A stretch of DNA of 64,000 bases from Mediterranea massiliensis (lineage in GTDB: Bacteria > Bacteroidota > Bacteroidia > Bacteroidales > Bacteroidaceae). The translations under genes and the position numbers were made by a program. Of the stretch, positions 12,955-59,481 are shown piece after piece (position 1 is the stretch's first letter; each line of letters begins with the position of its first letter). Under the pieces are notes generated by a model that was not told the DNA's origin, did not search any database, and saw only the letters and a list, made by a program, of their open reading frames with translations. The DNA lies in the NCBI GenBank assembly GCA_015060695.1, contig SUYA01000003.1, positions 124,001 through 188,000 on the forward strand, read 5' to 3'.

Positions 12955-15630
12955 TTATTTGTTTTTTATCCGTTTCATCCAACGAATAAATTCTCCTATC
13001 CACAATACTACCGAAGTAGAGAGTATGATGCTTGCCCATTCTTTCCAGGAAAGTGGATCGGTTCGGAAAACATCACCTCCAAATTCTACAATTAGGTATT
13101 GCCCTATTAATATGGCTAATGCAATTATCTCCATACCGTATGATTTGGATATACCTTTAAATGTTGACTCATTGGTCCCGAAGACGCGAACATTAAACAG
13201 ATTCCAAAATTGTAGCATGACAAAGATTGTAAAGAATTTCGTTAATTCGTGTGTGGTAAGTATGTCTTCTTTATTTTCGTATATGACCAATAATGTCATC
13301 AAAATACAAGTGAAAGCTAACCCTACACCAAATATCATATTTGCCATGTCATGTGAAATGATGAAATCATTGCTTTTACGTGGCTTTTCTAACATCACAC
13401 TTTCACTAGGAGGGATGGATGCCAATGCTAATGCGGCAAAGGTATCCATAATAAGATTTACCCACAACATTTGAGTAACGGTGAGAGGCAATTCGGTACC
13501 AATTATGGACCCTAACAAGACGATGGCTAATGCTACAAAATTGATGGTCAATTGGAAAACAATGAAGCGTTGTATGTTTTTATATAAAGAGCGTCCCCAC
13601 ATGACAGCTGTACCTATGCTGTTAAATGAGTCATCTAACAATGTGATGTCACTTGCTTCTTTAGCAACGGAAGTTCCTGAACCCATAGAAAGGCCTACTT
13701 GAGCATGATTCAATGCAGGAGCATCGTTGGTACCGTCACCAGTTACAGCAACAACAGCACCTTTTTGTTGCAATAATTGCACTAACCGTTGCTTGTCAGT
13801 GGGGCGAGCTCGCGACATGATTTTTAAATCCATGACTCGCTCTAAAGCTTCTTCGTCTTTTAATTCTGCAAAAGCGTTACCCGTAATACGGTTATAATCT
13901 GTATCGTCTGCAGTCCAAAGGCCAATTTGTTTTGCTATTTCTGTCGCTGTTCCTGGTGTGTCACCCGTTACAATTTTGACATTAATGCCTGCCGATTGAC
14001 ATTTAGAAACGGCTTTAGGAACATCCGAGCGTATAGGGTCGCTGATGGCCACAATGCCAAGAAAAGTAAGTCCTTCCAGATTTTGTAAATCAAGCTTTTC
14101 ATTTTCGGCTAATATCTTATAGGCAAATCCTAAAGTGCGCATAGCCATGTTTTGATATTCTAATAATTGATTGTCAACTTGATTTTTGTAATCAATGGTT
14201 TTCAGTTGCTTGTCTTTAGTTGCAACATAACTACATTTTTCATACACAATTTCAGGAGCACCTTTTACATAAACTACTTTTTCCTTTAAAAGAGGTGATT
14301 CTATTAATGTAGCCATGTATTTACGTTCGGTCGAGAAGGTTAATTGTTCAATGATATGAGCCTCTTCGCGCAGTGGTAAATAATTTATGTGTTGTTCATG
14401 AAGCCATAGTAGTAACGCTACTTCAGTAGGGTTACCCATCCCTTTCTGTTTTTCTATTCCTTCTTGCGTTTCAAGAAATGCTGTAGAATTCACACTGATA
14501 CCTTCTTTTATAAGGAGGCTAAATGTATCTGTTCCTAATTCTTGTTCTTCTTTTAAAGGATAGAATCGGGATTGATGTACTTGCATCAGATTCTGCGTCA
14601 ATGTTCCGGTTTTGTCTGTACAAATTACAGTGATGGCTCCCATGGTTTCACAAGCGTGCATCTTGCGTACCAAATTGTTAGTGTTTAGCATACGGCGCAT
14701 ATTCAAGGCCAAGCTAAGAGTGACACTCATTGGCAATCCTTCGGGGACTGCAACAACAATGAGAGTAACAGCCATCATGAAATATTGTAATGTGGATTTT
14801 AACGCCGGTAACCAATCGTTAAATGTTTGGAAGGAGGTAAAATCATAGTGGAGCAATACATCTTTTATAAAGAAGATGGTAAAAGCAATACCTGCTACAC
14901 TGAAACCAATTTTTTCGATTAGTTTTGCCAATCTATTTAATTGGATGTTTAGTGGGGTCGGTTCTGTTCCTTGTTCACTACTTTGGTGGGCTACTTTACC
15001 TATTTCGGTAGCATCACCTACATGCTTAACCTGCATTATGCCATGGCCATCCACTACAGTAGTGCCACGCAATACCCAATTACTGGCATATGTGGCCTCT
15101 TTGTTGAAGTAGGCTTCGTTGGTTGTTTTGCTAACAACAGGTTCACCGGTTAAATTTGATTCATTTATTTGTAGGGATATGGCTTCAATAAGTTCACCAT
15201 CGGCTGGGATTTCCTCACCCGTTTCTAATATAACAATATCGTCCACCACTACATCTTTTCGGGGAATTTCAGTTACATTGCCATTGCGGATGACTTTGAC
15301 TAACGTATCTTCGTTTACCGCATTGAGCAAATCGAATTTTTTTCCTGCATCGTATTCGAAATAAAAGCCTATGCCAGTAGCCAATAGGATTGCAATGATA
15401 ATGCCAACAGTTTCTGCATATTCATTTTCTATGATAGAGATGGCCATTGAAAGAGATGCTGCTACTAAAAGAATGCGGATGACCGGATCTTCAAATTTTT
15501 CCAAATATAGTTTCCATATGGATGGGCGTTTAGGAGGGGTCAGCAAATTGCTGCCATATTTCGAGCGGTTTATTAATACTTCCTCGTCGTTTAAGCCGGC
15601 TTGATAGTGCTGTTTAGATGCTTTTGCCAT
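12955..15630 (-). CDS. Calcium-transporting P-type ATPase (PMCA type)
   Basis: The 891-residue protein has all P-type ATPase marks: LTGEPV (actuator), VAVPEGLPMSVTLSLALN in membrane helix 4, the phosphorylation site CDKTGTLTQN, KGAPE nucleotide-binding segment, TGDGTNDAPAL and the C-terminal six-helix bundle. The PEGL signature in helix 4 indicates calcium export of the PMCA/SERCA type rather than heavy metal transport. The N terminus AKASKQHYQAGLNDEEVLINRSKYG is the cation ATPase N domain. First gene of the unit with the HAD hydrolase and ribF. Confidence 0.92.
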   Translation of the reverse strand: MAKASKQHYQAGLNDEEVLINRSKYGSNLLTPPKRPSIWKLYLEKFEDPVIRILLVAASLSMAISIIENEYAETVGIIIAILLATGIGFYFEYDAGKKFDLLNAVNEDTLVKVIRNGNVTEIPRKDVVVDDIVILETGEEIPADGELIEAISLQINESNLTGEPVVSKTTNEAYFNKEATYASNWVLRGTTVVDGHGIMQVKHVGDATEIGKVAHQSSEQGTEPTPLNIQLNRLAKLIEKIGFSVAGIAFTIFFIKDVLLHYDFTSFQTFNDWLPALKSTLQYFMMAVTLIVVAVPEGLPMSVTLSLALNMRRMLNTNNLVRKMHACETMGAITVICTDKTGTLTQNLMQVHQSRFYPLKEEQELGTDTFSLLIKEGISVNSTAFLETQEGIEKQKGMGNPTEVALLLWLHEQHINYLPLREEAHIIEQLTFSTERKYMATLIESPLLKEKVVYVKGAPEIVYEKCSYVATKDKQLKTIDYKNQVDNQLLEYQNMAMRTLGFAYKILAENEKLDLQNLEGLTFLGIVAISDPIRSDVPKAVSKCQSAGINVKIVTGDTPGTATEIAKQIGLWTADDTDYNRITGNAFAELKDEEALERVMDLKIMSRARPTDKQRLVQLLQQKGAVVAVTGDGTNDAPALNHAQVGLSMGSGTSVAKEASDITLLDDSFNSIGTAVMWGRSLYKNIQRFIVFQLTINFVALAIVLLGSIIGTELPLTVTQMLWVNLIMDTFAALALASIPPSESVMLEKPRKSNDFIISHDMANMIFGVGLAFTCILMTLLVIYENKEDILTTHELTKFFTIFVMLQFWNLFNVRVFGTNESTFKGISKSYGMEIIALAILIGQYLIVEFGGDVFRTDPLSWKEWASIILSTSVVLWIGEFIRWMKRIKNK

Positions 15631-15668
15631 GATAGTTCTTATGTTGTCTGTTTTTTTATTAGAGAATG

Positions 15669-15676
15669 CAAAAATA
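15669..15676 (-). promoter_or_regulatory. Probable -7 box for the calcium ATPase gene
   Basis: TATTTTTG on the minus strand (15676-15669), 39 bases before the start codon, matches the Bacteroides -7 pattern. The -33 region 20 bases further up reads TTCG rather than TTTG, so the site is only moderate. Confidence 0.45.
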
Positions 15677-15758
15677 GGATATTTTATTGGTTATAACGAA
15701 CTTTTGCTGACTTTTGTTGTTCTAAATTTAAGTTATACAGATTTAATAATGAATGTTT

Positions 15759-15923
15759 ATGAGGAAATACATTTGTGAACTTTGCGGATATGTATATAAT
15801 CCGATTGTAGGTGACCCGGATGGTGGGATAGAACCCGGAACTTCTTTTGAGGATATTCCAGATGATTGGGTTTGTCCTTTATGTGGGGTTGGGAAAGATG
15901 ATTTCTCATTGTACGAGGAGTAG
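15759..15923 (+). CDS. Rubredoxin
   Basis: A 54-residue protein, [20 protein letters not shown]..., with the complete rubredoxin iron site: Cys6 and Cys9 (CELCG) and Cys39 and Cys42 (CPLCG), plus the usual [14 protein letters not shown] ending. Rubredoxins carry single electrons, in anaerobes often to peroxide- or oxygen-reducing enzymes. It is a free-standing gene between the divergent calcium ATPase and the convergent Na/Pi transporter, closed by a hairpin at 15935-15970. A longer minus-strand frame over the same bases is a shadow. Confidence 0.96.
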
Positions 15924-50176: not shown

Positions 50177-50860
50177 TTAATATTGTTTGGTAAAAATCAG
50201 TATCGCACCGTTAGCACCCTTGGCACCATAATAGCTACCATCTTTCAGCACTTCAACATAGTCAATAAAGTGTATGCCTACATCGTCGATAGTAGGTATA
50301 ATTACTCCGTCCAGCACAAACAGTGGGGTTGTGTCGCTGTTGAAGCTGTTGATACCCCGCATGCTGACTTTAGATACACCTCCTAAGTCGTCTTTCGATA
50401 TGTTCAGCCCGGGTACTTTCCCATGCAGGGCTTTCAGTAAGTTAGGCTCTCCGCTTTGTCTGATCTTTTCTCCGGTAACAATCATCCCTAAACTTCGTTC
50501 TCTTCGGGCGGTGTGGTCAAAGCCTTTTTGAGTCAGTTCATGGTCTTCCATGGTAATGCTTTCTCCGGATATGGGATCCAATTGAATGGTAAGGCTCTTA
50601 CGGCTGTTTACAGGCACCTTGTAGGTTTTCTTGTTAATAAGAATCTTCAGTGTGTCATTGGGTTGTACATCTGTTAACCCAAAGATGCCTAACTTGTTGA
50701 CTACCGCATAGTTTTTAGGCGTAGTAACATACACACGAGCCTTTTTGAAAGGCTTTCCGGACAAATCTTTCAAGATGCCGTTGAAGGGCACTTTCCGCTC
50801 TTGGGCATATCCGGCTTGGATGGCCAGTAGAGTCAGCATGATAAGAACCAACTTGCGCAT
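50177..50860 (-). CDS. Stand-alone SusC-type plug-domain protein
   Basis: The start at 50860 (MRKLVLIMLTLLAIQAGYAQ) gives a clean signal peptide and 227 residues. It has a carboxypeptidase-regulatory-like beta domain (about 20-95) and then the TonB-receptor plug of SusC proteins: VSMRGINSFNSDTTPLFVLDG and YVEVLKDGSYYGAKGANGAILIFTKQY. It stops exactly where a SusC barrel (some 700 further residues) would begin, so there is no barrel. No frame-shifted barrel remnant follows, so it looks like a gene in its own right. It may interact with TonB or a receptor; its function is unknown. Confidence 0.85.
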   Translation of the reverse strand: MRKLVLIMLTLLAIQAGYAQERKVPFNGILKDLSGKPFKKARVYVTTPKNYAVVNKLGIFGLTDVQPNDTLKILINKKTYKVPVNSRKSLTIQLDPISGESITMEDHELTQKGFDHTARRERSLGMIVTGEKIRQSGEPNLLKALHGKVPGLNISKDDLGGVSKVSMRGINSFNSDTTPLFVLDGVIIPTIDDVGIHFIDYVEVLKDGSYYGAKGANGAILIFTKQY

Positions 50861-50888
50861 AATAGTAGGTATTTGATTGTTTTTTGAC

Positions 50889-50918
50889 AAAGATACGGTA
50901 AATAATGGAATATCAAAA
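50889..50918 (-). promoter_or_regulatory. Promoter for the plug-domain gene
   Basis: On the minus strand TTTG (50918-50915), 18 bases, TATCTTTG (50896-50889), 29 bases before the start codon. Confidence 0.6.
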
Positions 50919-50974: not shown

Positions 50975-51193
50975 TTATCGGTTCCCTTTCTCTTGGGTCT
51001 GTTCATATAGTTCTTGGAAGAAGTTTCGGTTTAGTATGATGGAAATGCGTTGCAACAGTTTTGTGTCTATACTCTCTTTTTGAAATAACCGATAGATGTT
51101 CGAGCGGTCGCACGAGAGTTTGCGAGCCAGCCAACTGACGCTGCGTTCTTGTCGTTCCAGTTCTTCCTTGATAAGGATTCCTATAGGTCTCAT
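50975..51193 (-). CDS. Small helix-turn-helix protein
   Basis: The 72-residue protein, MRPIGILIKEELERQERSVS..., has a Cro/C1-like helix-turn-helix (about 17-45, SWLARKLSCDRSNIYRLFQ) and a short tail. It has no ligand domain. It could regulate the plug-domain gene downstream on the same strand, 56 bases plus promoter away, but no operator was recognised. Confidence 0.75.
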   Translation of the reverse strand: MRPIGILIKEELERQERSVSWLARKLSCDRSNIYRLFQKESIDTKLLQRISIILNRNFFQELYEQTQEKGNR

Positions 51194-53128: not shown

Positions 53129-54372
53129 AACTGACAGAAACCTTTGCCGCCGTACAAGCGGCCGGCCGCCAATTGCTGGCCTTGAGCGATATTGAGATAA
53201 ACCACATCTTGTTGGCCGTAGCAGATGCTGCCGTGGCACAAACCGACTACATTTTGGCCGAAAATGCCAAAGACTTGGCACGCATGGAGCCAACGAATCC
53301 CAAATATGACCGTTTGAAGTTAACCCCTGAACGAATAGAAGGAATAGCATCTGACATGCGAAATGTAGCCAAATTACCTACACCTGTGGGGCGAATACTT
53401 GACAAACGTACATTGCCTAACGGGCTTCGCTTGACAAAAGTCAGTGTGCCTTTCGGAGTGATTGGTGTCATCTACGAGGCACGCCCCAATGTCAGTTTTG
53501 ATGTCTTCTCACTTTGTCTAAAGAGCGGCAATGCCTGCATCTTGAAGGGCGGTAGCGATGCCGATTGCTCCAACCGAGCCATTGTAGGCATCATCCGAGA
53601 GGTGTTGAAGCAATCGGGCGTCAATCCCGACAGCGTAGTGTTGCTTCCGGCTGACCGCGAAGCTACTACCGAATTGCTTCATGCCAACGGTTATGTCGAT
53701 CTCATTATCCCCAGAGGTAGCAGTAGCCTGATAAACTTTGTACGTCAGCATGCCACCATCCCCGTCATAGAAACCGGTGCCGGCATTTGCCACACCTACT
53801 TCGACCGCTATGCCGACTTACAAAAGGGGCGCGCCATCATTCACAATGCGAAGACTCGCCGTGTCAGCGTCTGCAATGCCCTCGACTGCCTGCTTATCGA
53901 CCTCGACCGCCTCTCGGCCTTGCCCGTACTCTGTGCGCCGTTGGCCGAAAGTCGTGTTCTTATCTATGCCGACCTGCCCGCTTATGTAGCCTTGCAGGGC
54001 CATTATCCCGACGAATTGCTGCAACAGGCTACCGACGAAGACTTTGGCCGCGAGTTCTTGGATTATAAAATGTCTGTTAAGAGTGTCGATGGCATCCATG
54101 AAGCTTTGGCTCACATTGCCCGCTACAGCTCCAAGCACAGCGAATGCATCGTCACCGAAGACGAGGAACATCGCCGCCTCTTCTGCCGCGACGTCGATGC
54201 AGCTTGTGTCTATGTCAACACACCCACCTCGTTTACCGACGGTGCGCAGTTCGGTTTGGGAGCCGAAATAGGCATCAGCACCCAGAAACTTCATGCACGC
54301 GGCCCCATGGCTTTGCAGGAAATCACTACTTACAAATGGCTGATAGAGGGCGAAGGGCAAATACGTCAGTAA
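53125..54372 (+). CDS. proA: Gamma-glutamyl phosphate reductase
   Basis: The ATG at 53125 ([16 protein letters not shown]) gives 415 residues and overlaps the proB stop; the longer frame is unneeded. Motifs: [31 protein letters not shown] and the catalytic-cysteine region [13 protein letters not shown]. It reduces glutamyl phosphate to the semialdehyde. The final proline gene, proC, is 5.2 kb further on beyond the NVEALA array and a porin. Confidence 0.95.
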
Positions 54373-54471: not shown

Positions 54472-54578
54472 GAAACAATCTGTTTCTCTCTACGAAACAA
54501 AGTGTTTCAGCGCATGAAACAGAGTGTTTCACCCTATGAAACAAACAGTTTCACCACCTTGAAACAAAGGTTTGTGTA
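54472..54578. repeat. 22-bp tandem palindromic repeat array
   Basis: Five units begin with GAAACA at 54472, 54494, 54516, 54538 and 54561 (periods 22, 22, 22, 23). In the first four, GAAACA-N3-TGTTTC or a one-base variant forms a dyad; the fifth is partial. Arms are kept while the inter-dyad bases vary. The array lies between proA and the remnant of the thiol-lipoprotein gene, in a gap of 240 bases with no other signal. Confidence 0.9.
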
Positions 54579-54611
54579 TGTTAACGATTTTAGTTGACAA
54601 TCTATTGTTTC

Positions 54612-54701
54612 ATTTTATCGCACATCAATATTTAAATAAAGATATGTTTGAAATTTATGTACGGATTTTGGCTTACATAATTAACAGCCTGCTTTTCATT
54701 C
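54612..54701 (-). pseudogene. Deletion remnant of the thiol-lipoprotein gene
   Basis: This 90-base piece matches the two ends of the intact gene at 56223-56729. Compared with it, 352 bases are missing between two copies of a 14-base direct repeat (TTTGGCTTACATAA, at 56275-56288 and 56627-56640 in the intact copy, one left at 54667-54680). A further 70 bases are missing that include the start codon and signal peptide. The 352-base loss also shifts the frame. Nothing functional remains. Confidence 0.9.
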
Positions 54702-54704
54702 TAA

Positions 54705-55784
54705 TTATTCTAATTTATATCTAAACAGGGCAAATTCACCGTTTTCATCCAATCCGACGGTATAAGCAGTTTTGCCATCTTTACTTAAGGACAATTCAAA
54801 CAAATATCTGTCTGTTTTATACGATTTTACAAAATTTCCATCCATATCAAACTTCATAATTAAAGGGAAATACTTCGGATCTTGATTCTTTTCCGGATCA
54901 AAAGAACGAACATCATGGGCATAACCATTATACAAAGTATAGAAATAATCGCCAACAACCCTACAGCAGACAGAAGCCATAGGCCTAAAAATGCGATATA
55001 CCAATGAACCATCATCTTCAATACTGATATTATCCAAATCTTTTTCGTAATCATCGGGAATGCGAATTTCCTTCAGCAGATTCAAACGATTGTCATATAA
55101 CTCCATGATGGGACTACCAAAACAAGCATACATAATCTTACCATGTGTACGAGAAACAGCAATATAACCGTTTGTCACATTGAACGGATAATATTTAAAA
55201 TCCGTTGGCAACCAACGTGTTGAGTTATCGCCTTTTTTAGCCACTTCCAAACGAGGAGCATCAATGTTTATACCTAATTTGTCATTTCGATACTTATATG
55301 AATTCAGCATAACCATGCAACTGTCATTCAACTCATCGAGTACATGATAGTCGGAATTGTAATTATGCCACACAGGCTTATAATGATTGCTCAACATCAA
55401 CGAGTCGATATTAACAAATGAAACCCTATCTCGCATAATATCTTTTACAGTCAATATATTATCACTCAGATATAGTTGAGCCGATAGCAATTCATCCGGA
55501 CCTTCTCCTTTTGCAAAGATTGATTTCAATAATTTTCCGGTATGCAGATTCCTGAATTCCACTATCTCTGTTTCCGACTTTAGGTTATTGCGAACAATCA
55601 GCAATGTGTCGTAAACAAAATAGCGATTGGCATAGATTAATTCCTCTTCAAAACGAACAAGTTCGCCTTTTACCAACTTGGCTTCTTTGCGAAAGTCTTT
55701 GTTAATGAAATGTACGGAAGAATCTTTGTTTGAGGAACAAGAAAGCAAAAGTATAGTAGCAAACAAACAAATAAATAATCTCAT
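54705..55784 (-). CDS. BF3164-type 6-bladed propeller lipoprotein, copy A
   Basis: The ATG at 55784 (MRLFICLFATILLLSCSSN) gives a lipoprotein signal with cysteine 16 and 359 residues; a start at 55808 would overlap the peptide gene. The rest is a beta-propeller of the BF3164/TolB-like type (KGELVRFEEELIYANRYFVYDTLLIV, LHTGKLLKSIFAKGEGPDEL). These proteins regularly sit beside NVEALA peptide genes in Bacteroides; function unknown. The protein is identical to copy B at 56735-57814. Confidence 0.85.
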   Translation of the reverse strand: MRLFICLFATILLLSCSSNKDSSVHFINKDFRKEAKLVKGELVRFEEELIYANRYFVYDTLLIVRNNLKSETEIVEFRNLHTGKLLKSIFAKGEGPDELLSAQLYLSDNILTVKDIMRDRVSFVNIDSLMLSNHYKPVWHNYNSDYHVLDELNDSCMVMLNSYKYRNDKLGINIDAPRLEVAKKGDNSTRWLPTDFKYYPFNVTNGYIAVSRTHGKIMYACFGSPIMELYDNRLNLLKEIRIPDDYEKDLDNISIEDDGSLVYRIFRPMASVCCRVVGDYFYTLYNGYAHDVRSFDPEKNQDPKYFPLIMKFDMDGNFVKSYKTDRYLFELSLSKDGKTAYTVGLDENGEFALFRYKLE

Positions 55785-55794
55785 AATTATGCAT

Positions 55795-56058
55795 TTAATG
55801 TTCAACAAATGTGCCGCTACAATCTACTTCTAAAGTACCAAAAAACATCGCTTTGTACTTTTCCTTACAATCAGTTTCTTCGTTACCTCTACACTCAAAA
55901 ATTATTTCCCCATTTTTCTTAATCTCACACCGGCTTAAAGCTTCTACTTCACCCAAAGCTATATCTGATAACATAGGAATTTGCTTCACCTTAGCAACAT
56001 TATATCCTGCAACCAGCATTATGATTGTCAGAAGAAAATAAACTTTTATCTTTTTCAT
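55795..56058 (-). CDS. NVEALA-family small secreted protein, copy A
   Basis: The 87-residue protein has an N-terminal hydrophobic segment (KVYFLLTIIMLVAGYNVAKV) and then the family motif as GEVEAL (residues 36-41; the usual form is NVEALA), followed by a mature part with four cysteines (44, 56, 64, 80). Four cysteines suggest two disulfides outside the cytoplasm. The gene is 10 bases upstream of the propeller lipoprotein and has a promoter at 56096-56126. The role of NVEALA proteins is unknown. Identical to copy B. Confidence 0.85.
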   Translation of the reverse strand: MKKIKVYFLLTIIMLVAGYNVAKVKQIPMLSDIALGEVEALSRCEIKKNGEIIFECRGNEETDCKEKYKAMFFGTLEVDCSGTFVEH

Positions 56059-56095
56059 AAAAACAGTTTTTAGTTTAAAAATATCAGAACATTTG

Positions 56096-56126
56096 CAAAT
56101 GTATATATATATTCAAAAAAAACAAT
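56096..56126 (-). promoter_or_regulatory. Promoter of the NVEALA unit A
   Basis: TACATTTG on the minus strand (56103-56096), preceded at 19 bases by ATTG (56126-56123). In unit B the same elements are 20 bases apart because of small insertions. Confidence 0.55.
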
Positions 56127-56222
56127 ATTCGATAAAACTTTTTTTAAAAAAATAAAATTTAAAGCAGTATTCAGCCCTTTTGGATTACAAACAACATAAT
56201 AATCATGGATAAAAGTCACATT

Positions 56223-56729
56223 TTATCGCACATCAATATTTAAATGAGGATATGTTTGAAATTTATGTACGGATTTTGGCTTACATAAAACATATAATTC
56301 ATTAAAATCAAGTAATATCTTTTCTTCCCAACAATCCTCTTCTACAGGAATTAAAATGACATGAGATAGTAGTTCGGCTTTTCTTGCATAATACTTAAAT
56401 GCATCCATATATGCAGATTGTAGAATAACATATAAAGGAATATTCTTTTGATTTCCACATACTTTTTCAACGAATTTGAATAATTCAACGATGCAATGAG
56501 AACAATCTGCATTCACTACACATAAGAATGCAATAGAATCATTAATATTTAAACTATCTTTTATTTCTTCATAAAAAGGAAGTTTTTGATAGGCTTCTAT
56601 TCTTGTTGTATCAATCAAGGAAAAGATTTGGCTTACATAATCCACAGCCTGCTTTTCATTCTTTGTTGCAGGTGAATGGCAAGAAGCCAACGATAACAAT
56701 AATAATATGACGGTCTGAACTTTTCCCAT
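56223..56729 (-). CDS. Thioredoxin-like thiol lipoprotein
   Basis: The 168-residue protein has a lipoprotein signal (ILLLLSLASC, cysteine 17) and a thioredoxin-like middle with a CSHC motif (Cys76 and Cys79 in VVNADCSHCIVELFKF), plus Cys70 and two more cysteines near the C terminus (EEDCWEEK, LYVLCKPK). A CxxC on a lipoprotein fits a periplasmic or surface redox or disulfide role, or one in handling a metal. Its neighbours encode a four-cysteine secreted peptide and a propeller lipoprotein. The neighbouring unit carries a deleted remnant of it. Confidence 0.75.
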   Translation of the reverse strand: MGKVQTVILLLLSLASCHSPATKNEKQAVDYVSQIFSLIDTTRIEAYQKLPFYEEIKDSLNINDSIAFLCVVNADCSHCIVELFKFVEKVCGNQKNIPLYVILQSAYMDAFKYYARKAELLSHVILIPVEEDCWEEKILLDFNELYVLCKPKSVHKFQTYPHLNIDVR

Positions 56730-56734
56730 TTTAA

Positions 56735-57814
56735 TTATTCTAATTTATATCTAAACAGGGCAAATTCACCGTTTTCATCCAATCCGACGGTATAAGCAGT
56801 TTTGCCATCTTTACTTAAGGACAATTCAAACAAATATCTGTCTGTTTTATACGATTTTACAAAATTTCCATCCATATCAAACTTCATAATTAAAGGGAAA
56901 TACTTCGGATCTTGATTCTTTTCCGGATCAAAAGAACGAACATCATGGGCATAACCATTATACAAAGTATAGAAATAATCGCCAACAACCCTACAGCAGA
57001 CAGAAGCCATAGGCCTAAAAATGCGATATACCAATGAACCATCATCTTCAATACTGATATTATCCAAATCTTTTTCGTAATCATCGGGAATGCGAATTTC
57101 CTTCAGCAGATTCAAACGATTGTCATATAACTCCATGATGGGACTACCAAAACAAGCATACATAATCTTACCATGTGTACGAGAAACAGCAATATAACCG
57201 TTTGTCACATTGAACGGATAATATTTAAAATCCGTTGGCAACCAACGTGTTGAGTTATCGCCTTTTTTAGCCACTTCCAAACGAGGAGCATCAATGTTTA
57301 TACCTAATTTGTCATTTCGATACTTATATGAATTCAGCATAACCATGCAACTGTCATTCAACTCATCGAGTACATGATAGTCGGAATTGTAATTATGCCA
57401 CACAGGCTTATAATGATTGCTCAACATCAACGAGTCGATATTAACAAATGAAACCCTATCTCGCATAATATCTTTTACAGTCAATATATTATCACTCAGA
57501 TATAGTTGAGCCGATAGCAATTCATCCGGACCTTCTCCTTTTGCAAAGATTGATTTCAATAATTTTCCGGTATGCAGATTCCTGAATTCCACTATCTCTG
57601 TTTCCGACTTTAGGTTATTGCGAACAATCAGCAATGTGTCGTAAACAAAATAGCGATTGGCATAGATTAATTCCTCTTCAAAACGAACAAGTTCGCCTTT
57701 TACCAACTTGGCTTCTTTGCGAAAGTCTTTGTTAATGAAATGTACGGAAGAATCTTTGTTTGAGGAACAAGAAAGCAAAAGTATAGTAGCAAACAAACAA
57801 ATAAATAATCTCAT
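56735..57814 (-). CDS. BF3164-type 6-bladed propeller lipoprotein, copy B
   Basis: Second copy of the propeller lipoprotein, identical in protein sequence to that at 54705-55784 (lipobox cysteine 16, 359 residues). It lies between NVEALA copy B (10 bases upstream) and the intact thiol lipoprotein (5 bases downstream), so unit B is the complete three-gene operon. Identity over the full length points to a very recent duplication or continued gene conversion. Confidence 0.85.
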   Translation of the reverse strand: MRLFICLFATILLLSCSSNKDSSVHFINKDFRKEAKLVKGELVRFEEELIYANRYFVYDTLLIVRNNLKSETEIVEFRNLHTGKLLKSIFAKGEGPDELLSAQLYLSDNILTVKDIMRDRVSFVNIDSLMLSNHYKPVWHNYNSDYHVLDELNDSCMVMLNSYKYRNDKLGINIDAPRLEVAKKGDNSTRWLPTDFKYYPFNVTNGYIAVSRTHGKIMYACFGSPIMELYDNRLNLLKEIRIPDDYEKDLDNISIEDDGSLVYRIFRPMASVCCRVVGDYFYTLYNGYAHDVRSFDPEKNQDPKYFPLIMKFDMDGNFVKSYKTDRYLFELSLSKDGKTAYTVGLDENGEFALFRYKLE

Positions 57815-57824
57815 AATTATGCAT

Positions 57825-58088
57825 TTAATGTTCAACAAATGTGCCGCTACAATCTACTTCTAAAGTACCAAAAAACATCGCTTTGTACTTTTCCTTACAA
57901 TCAGTTTCTTCGTTACCTCTACACTCAAAAATTATTTCCCCATTTTTCTTAATCTCACACCGGCTTAAAGCTTCTACTTCACCCAAAGCTATATCTGATA
58001 ACATAGGAATTTGCTTCACCTTAGCAACATTATATCCTGCAACCAGCATTATGATTGTCAGAAGAAAATAAACTTTTATCTTTTTCAT
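57825..58088 (-). CDS. NVEALA-family small secreted protein, copy B
   Basis: Identical in protein sequence to copy A (87 residues, GEVEAL motif, four cysteines). The start at 58088 matches copy A's; a frame extension to 58148 reads through the promoter and is not real. First gene of the intact unit B, with its promoter at 58126-58157. Confidence 0.85.
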   Translation of the reverse strand: MKKIKVYFLLTIIMLVAGYNVAKVKQIPMLSDIALGEVEALSRCEIKKNGEIIFECRGNEETDCKEKYKAMFFGTLEVDCSGTFVEH

Positions 58089-58125
58089 AAAAACAGTTTT
58101 TAGTTTAAAAATATCAGAACATTTG

Positions 58126-58157
58126 CAAATGTATATATACATATTCAAAAAAACAAT
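58126..58157 (-). promoter_or_regulatory. Promoter of the NVEALA unit B
   Basis: TACATTTG (58133-58126) with ATTG 20 bases upstream (58157-58154). The AT-rich spacer differs from that of unit A by insertion and deletion. Confidence 0.55.
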
Positions 58158-58248
58158 ATTCGATAAAACTTTTTTTTAGAAATATAATTTAAAGTAGTAT
58201 TCAGTCCTTTTGGGTTGCAAACAATATAATAATCATGGATAAAAGTCA

Positions 58249-58276
58249 CATTTTATCGCACATCAATATTTAAATA
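58249..58276 (-). pseudogene. 3' tail of a third thiol-lipoprotein copy
   Basis: Only the last codons (LNIDVR and stop) of the thiol lipoprotein remain, joined directly to the porin gene's 3' side. It marks the outer boundary of the duplication. Confidence 0.75.
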
Positions 58277-58299: not shown

Positions 58300-59481
58300 T
58301 TAGAATACCGGAATGGTATAGACTAAACCCAATGAAATGCGTTGAGTATCGTCGACATGACATCCCAACGTCTTGGCACGGCCGGTCAGCGAGCGTCCTT
58401 TTTGCGATAGGTGCAGGAAGATGAGCATCCCTTCCACATCCTTGGGGAAGAACTCGGCACAAGCCTGAATGTTCCATGTGCGGCGATACAATCCTTTATC
58501 ATAAACTCCGTTGCTTTTATAAACACTTCCCAATTCGTAGGCTCCTTTTACATAAAGATTCCAGCAGGGATGTACTCGATAGTCGGCATTGGCAATCACG
58601 GTGAAGTAATCCACATTCTGTGCTGTTACTCCTCCTTGTGGGTGAACGGCCGACAATTCGCTGATAAGTCCCTTGCTGTCAATACCTTCTCTGGAGTACA
58701 TCACATCCAGGTAATACATGGCCGGTCCTCGTTCCCAAACGTTGCTACAAGTAAAGTAGAAGACATTCTTATTGCGAGCCAACTGACCGTAAGAGAGCGA
58801 ATAGCGGAACTGCAAAGCACCATCGTAGAACTTGCCGTCGTAGTTGGCCGTACCCAAGAAGGGTAATTTAGCCTTTTCAATTCCTTCCGGCACTCCGTAG
58901 GTATAGATTTCATCCTCCTCGCCGTTGCGAATGTTGGTTAGTTGCAAGTTTATCTCCTGCGAGGGCGTCAGGTGGAAAGCCGCATTGATACCGGCCTGAT
59001 AGAAAGGCAGGCTGCTGTTGAAGTCGCTGAATTCACGAATCTTGATGCCGTTCAGCCAATTCTCTTGTCCGCCGAAGTGAACAAACTGCTTGCCGATGGT
59101 CAGGTCGAATGCAGGCGTCAGTTTCCACTTTAAGAAGGCATACTCTACCGACGACGAAAGGTTGTCCAGTGAGTGCGGGTCGCTACCCTTGTTAAACGAT
59201 TGTCGGAAGTGATAAGAAAGGTTATTGCCGATGTTGCCCAATATCTCCAGGCGCACCTTGTTCAGTTTGAAGGCCAAATCTTGAAATACACCTCCGTCAA
59301 ACTCGGCGGCGGTCGAAGTATAGAACTGCAGGTTCATGTTGCTGCTGGCTATGGCCTTGCCATCCTTGCTGATGCGTCCCAACAACGTTTTGCTATCCTC
59401 GCTGCTGATTAACGGTTCTTGAGCTATGGCCGGAATGATGGATGCCATCAGTAAGATGGCCGTCAGTAATATCTGTTTCAT
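58300..59481 (-). CDS. Porin (OprO/OprP-like 16-strand barrel)
   Basis: The ATG at 59481 (MKQILLTAILLMASIIPAIAQ) gives a signal peptide and 393 residues; an upstream frame to 59769 overlaps proC on the other strand and is not real. The sequence alternates polar and hydrophobic residues as in a barrel, with the phosphate-selective porin pattern VRLEILGNIGNNLSYHFRQSFN, AFDLTIGKQFVHFGGQENW and the C-terminal aromatic TIPVF. Substrate is not certain; specific phosphate transport is not implied. TATATTTG at 59517-59510 is a likely -7 box. Confidence 0.85.
   Translation of the reverse strand: MKQILLTAILLMASIIPAIAQEPLISSEDSKTLLGRISKDGKAIASSNMNLQFYTSTAAEFDGGVFQDLAFKLNKVRLEILGNIGNNLSYHFRQSFNKGSDPHSLDNLSSSVEYAFLKWKLTPAFDLTIGKQFVHFGGQENWLNGIKIREFSDFNSSLPFYQAGINAAFHLTPSQEINLQLTNIRNGEEDEIYTYGVPEGIEKAKLPFLGTANYDGKFYDGALQFRYSLSYGQLARNKNVFYFTCSNVWERGPAMYYLDVMYSREGIDSKGLISELSAVHPQGGVTAQNVDYFTVIANADYRVHPCWNLYVKGAYELGSVYKSNGVYDKGLYRRTWNIQACAEFFPKDVEGMLIFLHLSQKGRSLTGRAKTLGCHVDDTQRISLGLVYTIPVF

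Follow-up and report, generated by a model that had tools for sequence, protein, structure and literature searches.

The 64,000-nucleotide stretch of Mediterranea massiliensis DNA analysed here (the window; contig SUYA01000003.1, positions 124,001 to 188,000) carries two copies of a gene pair encoding a small peptide, predicted to be secreted, and a propeller lipoprotein directly downstream of it, the copies being offset by exactly 2030 nt and identical over 1408 nt (54702–56109 against 56732–58139, aligned base by base). With a probability of roughly one half, we read the locus as a tandemly duplicated cassette of a modular family of secreted peptides, the NVEALA peptides of PF14055 and their relatives, whose products would be processed and bound, and whose copies would have been homogenised, as proposed below.

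The locus lies on the minus strand, flanked by proA (ending at 54372) and a Porin_O_P gene (58300–59481; PF07396). In reading order it consists of peptide gene copy 2 (57825–58088; 87 aa, with a 42-aa leader ending in GEVEALS and a four-cysteine core), propeller lipoprotein gene copy 2 (56735–57814; 359 aa from the ATG, lipobox cysteine C16), an intact thiol lipoprotein gene (56223–56729; 168 aa, with a CSHC motif and the lipobox LASC), peptide gene copy 1 (55795–56058), propeller gene copy 1 (54705–55784) and, reduced to 91 bp, the remains of a second thiol gene (54611–54701). In both copies 10 nt separate the peptide stop codon from the propeller ATG. The identical block covers both genes and a promoter-like region, in which the element TACATTTG (minus strand, 56096–56103 and 58126–58133) sits about 37 nt upstream of the peptide start and fits TAnnTTTG, which we take to be the consensus of the Bacteroides -7 box. 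A 27-bp repeat, R, marks the unit borders at 54611–54637, 56219–56245 (overlapping the stop codon of the thiol gene) and 58249–58275, given on the plus strand; an exact-match search of the assembly found these three occurrences alone, and allowing up to three mismatches added no further one. The G+C content of the module is 32.4%, against 42.3% for the window.

Age and history of the duplication

Outside the identical block the two units have drifted apart. The intergenic part at 56110–56218 differs from its counterpart at 58140–58248 at 8 of 107 aligned sites (7.5%) and by three gaps, and the thiol gene remnant is mismatched with the intact gene at 4 of its 91 sites (4.4%). The remnant has moreover undergone two internal deletions: 352 bp were lost between direct repeats of 14 bp, TTTGGCTTACATAA, and then a further 70 bp, so that the left unit spans 1608 bp between its borders instead of 2030. 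The contrast between no change in 1408 sites of the block and 12 changes in 198 sites of the flanking repeat parts is strong (Fisher p = 9e-12), and at the rate seen in the flanks the chance of finding no change over about 350 synonymous sites is roughly 3e-10. As the flanks have diverged and the block is identical, the duplication must predate the sameness of its core, which fits a later homogenisation of the peptide–propeller part, through gene conversion or through collapse of the assembly consensus, and does not fit a clean, recent duplication. The divergence of the flanks also argues against a trivial assembly duplicate, for which identity running unbroken through the intergenic parts had been named as the mark.

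A first-pass annotation of this DNA had described a recent tandem amplification of a three-gene operon. Its offset of 2030 bases and the identity of the peptide and propeller proteins were borne out, no mismatch being found between the segments that it had singled out for alignment (54702–56103 and 56732–58133). On the other hand, what is doubled is the peptide–propeller pair and not a clean three-gene unit, the thiol lipoprotein gene that had been assigned to both copies being intact once; and "recent" applies to the sameness of the core, not to the diverged intergenic part and the decayed third gene.

A collapsed assembly consensus, in which two real, diverged copies had their near-identical parts merged and placed twice so that the perfect identity would be an artefact, seems to us improbable, at about one chance in four. 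The genome is a draft (2.53 Mb in 28 contigs, 86.6% complete) and the 1.4-kb identical block, with its differing flanks, is longer than short reads; at the same time, one contig spans both copies with distinct flanks and a distinct state of the third gene, and the few, long contigs of the draft suggest, sequencing method aside, that the assembly is well resolved.

The encoded proteins

The peptide scored 22.1 bits against PF14055 (E 1.3e-4; copy 1 scanned) and 21.8 bits in the genome search, missing the curated cut-off of 27. A [VI]EA motif is found in 162 of 180 NVEALA hits (the 18 others were excluded for lack of it), which give 156 distinct peptides; in 146 of these the motif begins with Asn and in 149 it ends with Ala, where the window peptide has EVEALS. 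Because of its sub-cut-off score, the final Ser of its motif and the absence of a nearby peptidase gene we do not file it under PF14055, but we hold it to be a divergent NVEALA relative that would work like a member.

The propeller lipoprotein passed the cut-off of PF15869 (TolB_like) with 29.8 bits against 29.2 (copy 1 scanned), and its AlphaFold2 model, again of copy 1, is a confident propeller (pLDDT 82.7, pTM 0.83) that, among the matches listed, comes nearest to NHL-type six-bladed propellers; this ranking was made by VIA-align, which re-ranks Foldseek hits and hence covers those matches only. When 5.8 billion proteins were searched (word-limited), the hits outside the protein's own 99% cluster were two relatives, with identities of 54 and 58%; scans of DNA added more distant ones at 25–31%. 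The four-cysteine peptide with a GEVEAL motif and the propeller lipoprotein of the first-pass annotation are both upheld.

The thiol lipoprotein, a candidate for a thioredoxin-like fold, is at 168 aa close in length to relatives of 164–168 aa in three named loci described at the end of the text (L069, L070 and L074), and its CSHC aligns with CSVC or CSFC in relatives. It gave no Pfam match beyond chance, no match at E 0.01 in the protein search and a weak model (pLDDT 57.3). A sequence search against solved structures returned chance matches only, and PADLOC, which bears on phage defence only, matched none of seven proteins, leaving an anti-phage label unsupported.

NVEALA–propeller modules across the genus

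We surveyed 96 genomes of the same genus, one per species, made up of those at least 90% complete and the genome of the window itself, scoring as NVEALA-bearing those with a PF14055 hit at E 1e-3. Such peptides occur in 53 of the 96, with up to 21 genes in one genome; the window's own genome has 12 hits, including the two in the window and seven (one with a stop codon) in an array on contig C5. Module statistics were drawn from 69 sequences, namely the window, 65 same-genus loci (five of them from its own genome) and three named loci, in which 178 NVEALA genes were retained; as the 65 loci were taken from NVEALA matches, strongest first, these statistics describe strong members.

Taking as successor the next recognised feature within 600 nt, we found a propeller gene after 137 of the 178 NVEALA genes, another NVEALA gene after 19, a thiol gene after five and nothing after 17, adjacency to propellers being counted without a control set. 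The 137 pairs are in turn followed by a thiol gene (38), the next NVEALA gene (38), a further propeller (28), another linked gene (2) or nothing (31). Both copies in the window follow this rule, with the propeller gene directly downstream of the peptide gene. Cysteines are even in number in 107 of 125 cores, a count that leaves out 12 modules without a matching motif, keeps duplicates and scores one cysteine-free core as even.

Arrays of two peptide–propeller pairs followed by a thiol gene recur (L126, L127, L148 and L170), so that the sharing of one thiol gene by two pairs is nothing out of the ordinary; the loss of this gene next to copy 1 agrees with that. In a separate observation, a locus elsewhere in the same genome (L030; C5, 35000–52485) has its thiol/DUF1573 gene in two copies (12956–13534 and 15099–15866, 98% identical over 342 bp), one of them shortened in a manner reminiscent of the window's thiol gene. 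Four same-genome module pairs reach 85% identity over 500 bp, and that of the window alone is identical. Duplication by itself is ordinary for this family. The dosage advantage that the first-pass annotation had suggested, that is, a very recent amplification maintained by selection, could draw on an identity that covers both genes and the promoter-like region, but we consider it quite unlikely given the 7.5% and 4.4% divergence outside the block, the decay of the third gene and the frequency of tandem modules in a family in which propellers so regularly come next.

Two species encode an identical 339-aa propeller (L024 in genome G009 and L026 in genome G043), the second of them, judging by equal match scores, at two places (L026 and L028), which suggests recent transfer or copying of modules.

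Leaders and cores

Within the C5 array, blocks of 78–439 bp comprising upstream DNA and leader are 90–97% identical between modules; among the cores and among the propellers no match reached 60 bp and 75%. The break is sharp: of 111 leader matches within genomes (mean identity 83.5%), 90 have their end point at -3 to +12 nt relative to the NVEALA codons, and four, including that of the window's pair, extend more than 120 nt past the motif.

Mantel tests on 126 of the 137 modules (11 were dropped for having no motif, a short core or a duplicate) showed core identity to track propeller identity (r 0.45, 0 of 2000 shuffles) and revealed no such relation for the leader (r 0.005, 833 of 2000); these tests, like the genome counts, ignore kinship among genomes. 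Without the largest clade the values were 0.27 (0 of 2000) for core and propeller and 0.05 (111 of 2000) for leader and propeller. Moreover, leader identity tracks the genome (0 of 2000), and neither core (1356 of 2000) nor propeller (576 of 2000) does so. In the modules compared, leader and cargo are thus decoupled: the core varies with its propeller and the leader does not.

A putative dedicated signal peptidase

The C5 array also encodes a signal peptidase I of 293 aa (PF10502, 107.5 bits), apart from two other S26 genes on contig C22. Using this protein as query and scoring a dedicated peptidase as present from 200 bits upwards, we found one in 47 of the 53 NVEALA-bearing genomes (20 of the 20 with strong NVEALA loci, which were searched first, and 27 of 33 among the other 76, covered by two later searches) and in two of the 43 genomes lacking NVEALA peptides (2 of 30, one with two stop codons, and 0 of 13). 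The lowest member of the dedicated group scored 200.4 bits, and the two groups of peptidases separate clearly because all other hits stay under 90 bits. In the 20 strong-locus genomes, at least 31 of 37 dedicated peptidase genes have a listed NVEALA gene no more than 15 kb away. In the interrupted gene (G099, contig C24, 119355–120119) both stops are in-frame TAG codons. No NVEALA gene was detected in that genome, where the peptidase gene may have decayed after the peptides were lost.

Looking outwards from the 65 NVEALA loci, we found the peptidase in 33, a gene for a large lipoprotein in 41 and a Wzy_C gene in 28; each was seen in none of 20 control loci, which are shorter (about 10 kb against about 16 kb). 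We read the large lipoprotein as transglutaminase-like, Pfam having given only a sub-cut-off F5/8 type C match. A linked peptidase is common but not strictly defining, and the window is without one, its genome's gene being that of the C5 array. An earlier sequence-pattern test for linked peptidases, which picked out 5 of the 65 loci and none of the 20 controls, proved too weak and was replaced by these protein searches. Across 24 loci, similar leaders went with similar ligases (r 0.705) and peptidases (r 0.60) and, less strongly, with similar large lipoproteins (0.256); relatedness confounds all three values.

Signal peptidase sites call for an A-x-A pattern, which the final Ala found in most NVEALA motifs would suit. 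That the leader is instead never cut, the peptide staying anchored in the membrane and the motif serving a structural role in a leader that is constrained where the core is not, we think unlikely. In its favour, about 20–25 aa separate the hydrophobic stretch from the motif by our reading of the sequences, which exceeds the usual distance for signal peptidase I, and the mean leader identity given above is modest. However, the closest pairs are 90–98% identical in the non-coding DNA ahead of the leader as well, pointing to recombination rather than to protein constraint alone, and NVEALA peptides co-occur with a distinct signal peptidase.

Setting of the locus

The first-pass annotation had placed the duplication in an otherwise conserved stretch between proA and proC, a description that did not hold: reading about 4–9 kb downstream of proA in 20 relatives, we found the porin gene next to proA in two (G025 and G007) and proC within those stretches in none. 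There, fewer than 10 nt separate the proA match from the porin match, which makes it probable, as judged from these two genomes, that the module was inserted between the two genes in the window's lineage. A known mobile-element carrier found no support, as no related locus was seen in viral contigs and no match in collections of plasmids and phages.

Between proA and the module lies a 22-bp tandem repeat of the GAAAC/GTTTC type (54472–54573, 4.6 copies). Further away, 50177–50890 on the minus strand encodes a stand-alone, 237-aa N-terminal piece of a SusC/RagA-type protein with a plug domain (TIGR04056, 87.5 bits; cut-off 368), and close upstream of it a 72-aa open reading frame (50975–51193) reads like a small helix-turn-helix regulator.

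A model for the locus

We propose that unequal recombination at repeat R created the duplicate, that slipped-strand deletion then removed one thiol gene and that gene conversion afterwards homogenised the peptide–propeller core. The peptide would be exported by Sec with its 42-aa leader anchored in the membrane, and the signal peptidase I of the C5 array, encoded elsewhere in the genome, would cut after the NVEALA-type A-x-A/S motif; the CxxC lipoprotein may help to form disulfides that stabilise the released core, which the cognate propeller lipoprotein would bind at the envelope. Most likely, the peptide would serve to antagonise close relatives and the propeller to protect its own producer, in which case a second copy would increase peptide and protector alike, and a single thiol gene could serve both copies. 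Toxicity, binding, cleavage, disulfide formation and protection are all inferred from genes. Within this model we would guess at a peptide and its protector with a little under half of our expectation, at surface display or adhesion with about a quarter, at a signal and its receptor with a fifth and at something else with the remaining tenth.

Taken on its own terms, a signal with a surface receptor in place of a toxin with a protector appears an unlikely account of the pair. The joint variation of core and propeller would suit it, as would the NHL-type six-bladed propeller, a general binding fold. It sits poorly with the many different NVEALA genes per genome (at E 1e-3, 12 in the window's own and as many as 21 in others), and no regulator was noticed beside the modules read, although no search was aimed at regulators.

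On a wider view, the NVEALA peptides of Bacteroides-type bacteria could form an unrecognised, widespread family with a fixed leader and exchangeable cargo, in which every variable core, held by disulfides, has a propeller lipoprotein matched to it, core–propeller cassettes are swapped behind a genome-specific leader and the peptidase cuts precisely at the motif, the window then holding a cassette doubled before its cargo diverged. We regard this broader reading as tentative, with odds somewhat short of even.

Several observations weigh against these proposals. Six of the 53 NVEALA-bearing genomes have no dedicated peptidase, and the 64 kb of the window hold none of peptidase, large lipoprotein or Wzy_C gene. 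The window peptide itself stays below the PF14055 cut-off, with a final Ser in its motif in place of Asn-Val-Glu-Ala-Leu-Ala. The correlation of leader with peptidase is both confounded by relatedness and equalled by that of leader with ligase. Within the 30-member GSVDCP clade the leader tracks the propeller as well (r 0.30, 0 of 2000; core 0.26, 4 of 2000), and outside it, the leaders of 76 between-genome pairs whose propellers are at least 0.35 identical are somewhat more alike (0.57 against 0.48). In genome G101 (L136), and between it and G014 (L137) or G105 (L173), propellers are 0.84–0.94 identical beside unrelated cores, which argues against strict one-to-one recognition. Finally, propellers also exist without peptides, since in the survey they outnumber them (262 against 180 open reading frame hits), 28 of the 137 pairs have a further propeller behind them and five of eight named loci found by their propeller (L068, L071, L072, L073 and L075) show no NVEALA gene beside it. 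As an observation in its own right, propellers 0.88–0.92 identical occur with unrelated cores in a single array (L136; G101, contig C1, 40500–60400), as if the core had been swapped alone.

If the proposals are true, more than half of the species examined (53 of 96) in a common gut genus carry such peptide genes, up to 21 each and most with a peptidase of their own. Since the peptidase co-occurs with the peptides and homology breaks off sharply at the motif, the hypothesis of cleavage there can be put to a direct test.

Comparison with known systems

Literature searches by name found no paper on NVEALA and no described function, in agreement with the statement of the first-pass annotation that none is known for this gene set. 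The window peptide resembles PF14055 members in being a small exported peptide with a leader of about 42 aa that ends in a VEAL motif, a variable, cysteine-rich core and a propeller lipoprotein downstream; it differs in its score (22.1 against 27 bits), in its GEVEALS and in a leader unlike the one shared by the C5 modules. The propeller is TolB_like by score (PF15869) and by its predicted, lipobox-bearing fold, but outside its own cluster the word-limited protein search gave just the two relatives at 54 and 58% identity.

The nearest counterparts are in Parabacteroides sp. An277 (L069), a Mediterranea metagenome-assembled genome (L074) and a Prevotella metagenome-assembled genome (L070), which have the same order of peptide, propeller and CxxC lipoprotein, and whose cores are related to that of the window by a C-E/D-x ... 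C-x-G pattern. L070 has two peptide genes, and the peptide and thiol proteins of L074 are identical to those in genome G011 (L017). All three adjoin a gene for the large lipoprotein that we read as transglutaminase-like, and L069 a signal peptidase as well, whereas the module of the window stands alone between proA and the porin gene.

In B. thetaiotaomicron, genes for an O-antigen ligase family protein (BT0662), a six-bladed propeller (BT0664) and a lepB/signal peptidase I (BT0667) are clustered, with non-significant changes in expression in response to iron (P 0.11–0.35; PMC10434189). This cluster, BT0662–BT0669, is like the NVEALA loci in bringing ligase, propeller and peptidase genes close together; the excerpt of PMC10434189 on which this comparison draws names no peptide.

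In general terms, fixed-leader bacteriocin precursors differ from the window peptide in having a double-glycine leader, against a Sec/signal-peptidase leader here, and the partner in the window is a propeller lipoprotein. Likened from their genes alone, the two would nevertheless share a common leader, an exchangeable, cysteine-rich core and a neighbouring partner gene.

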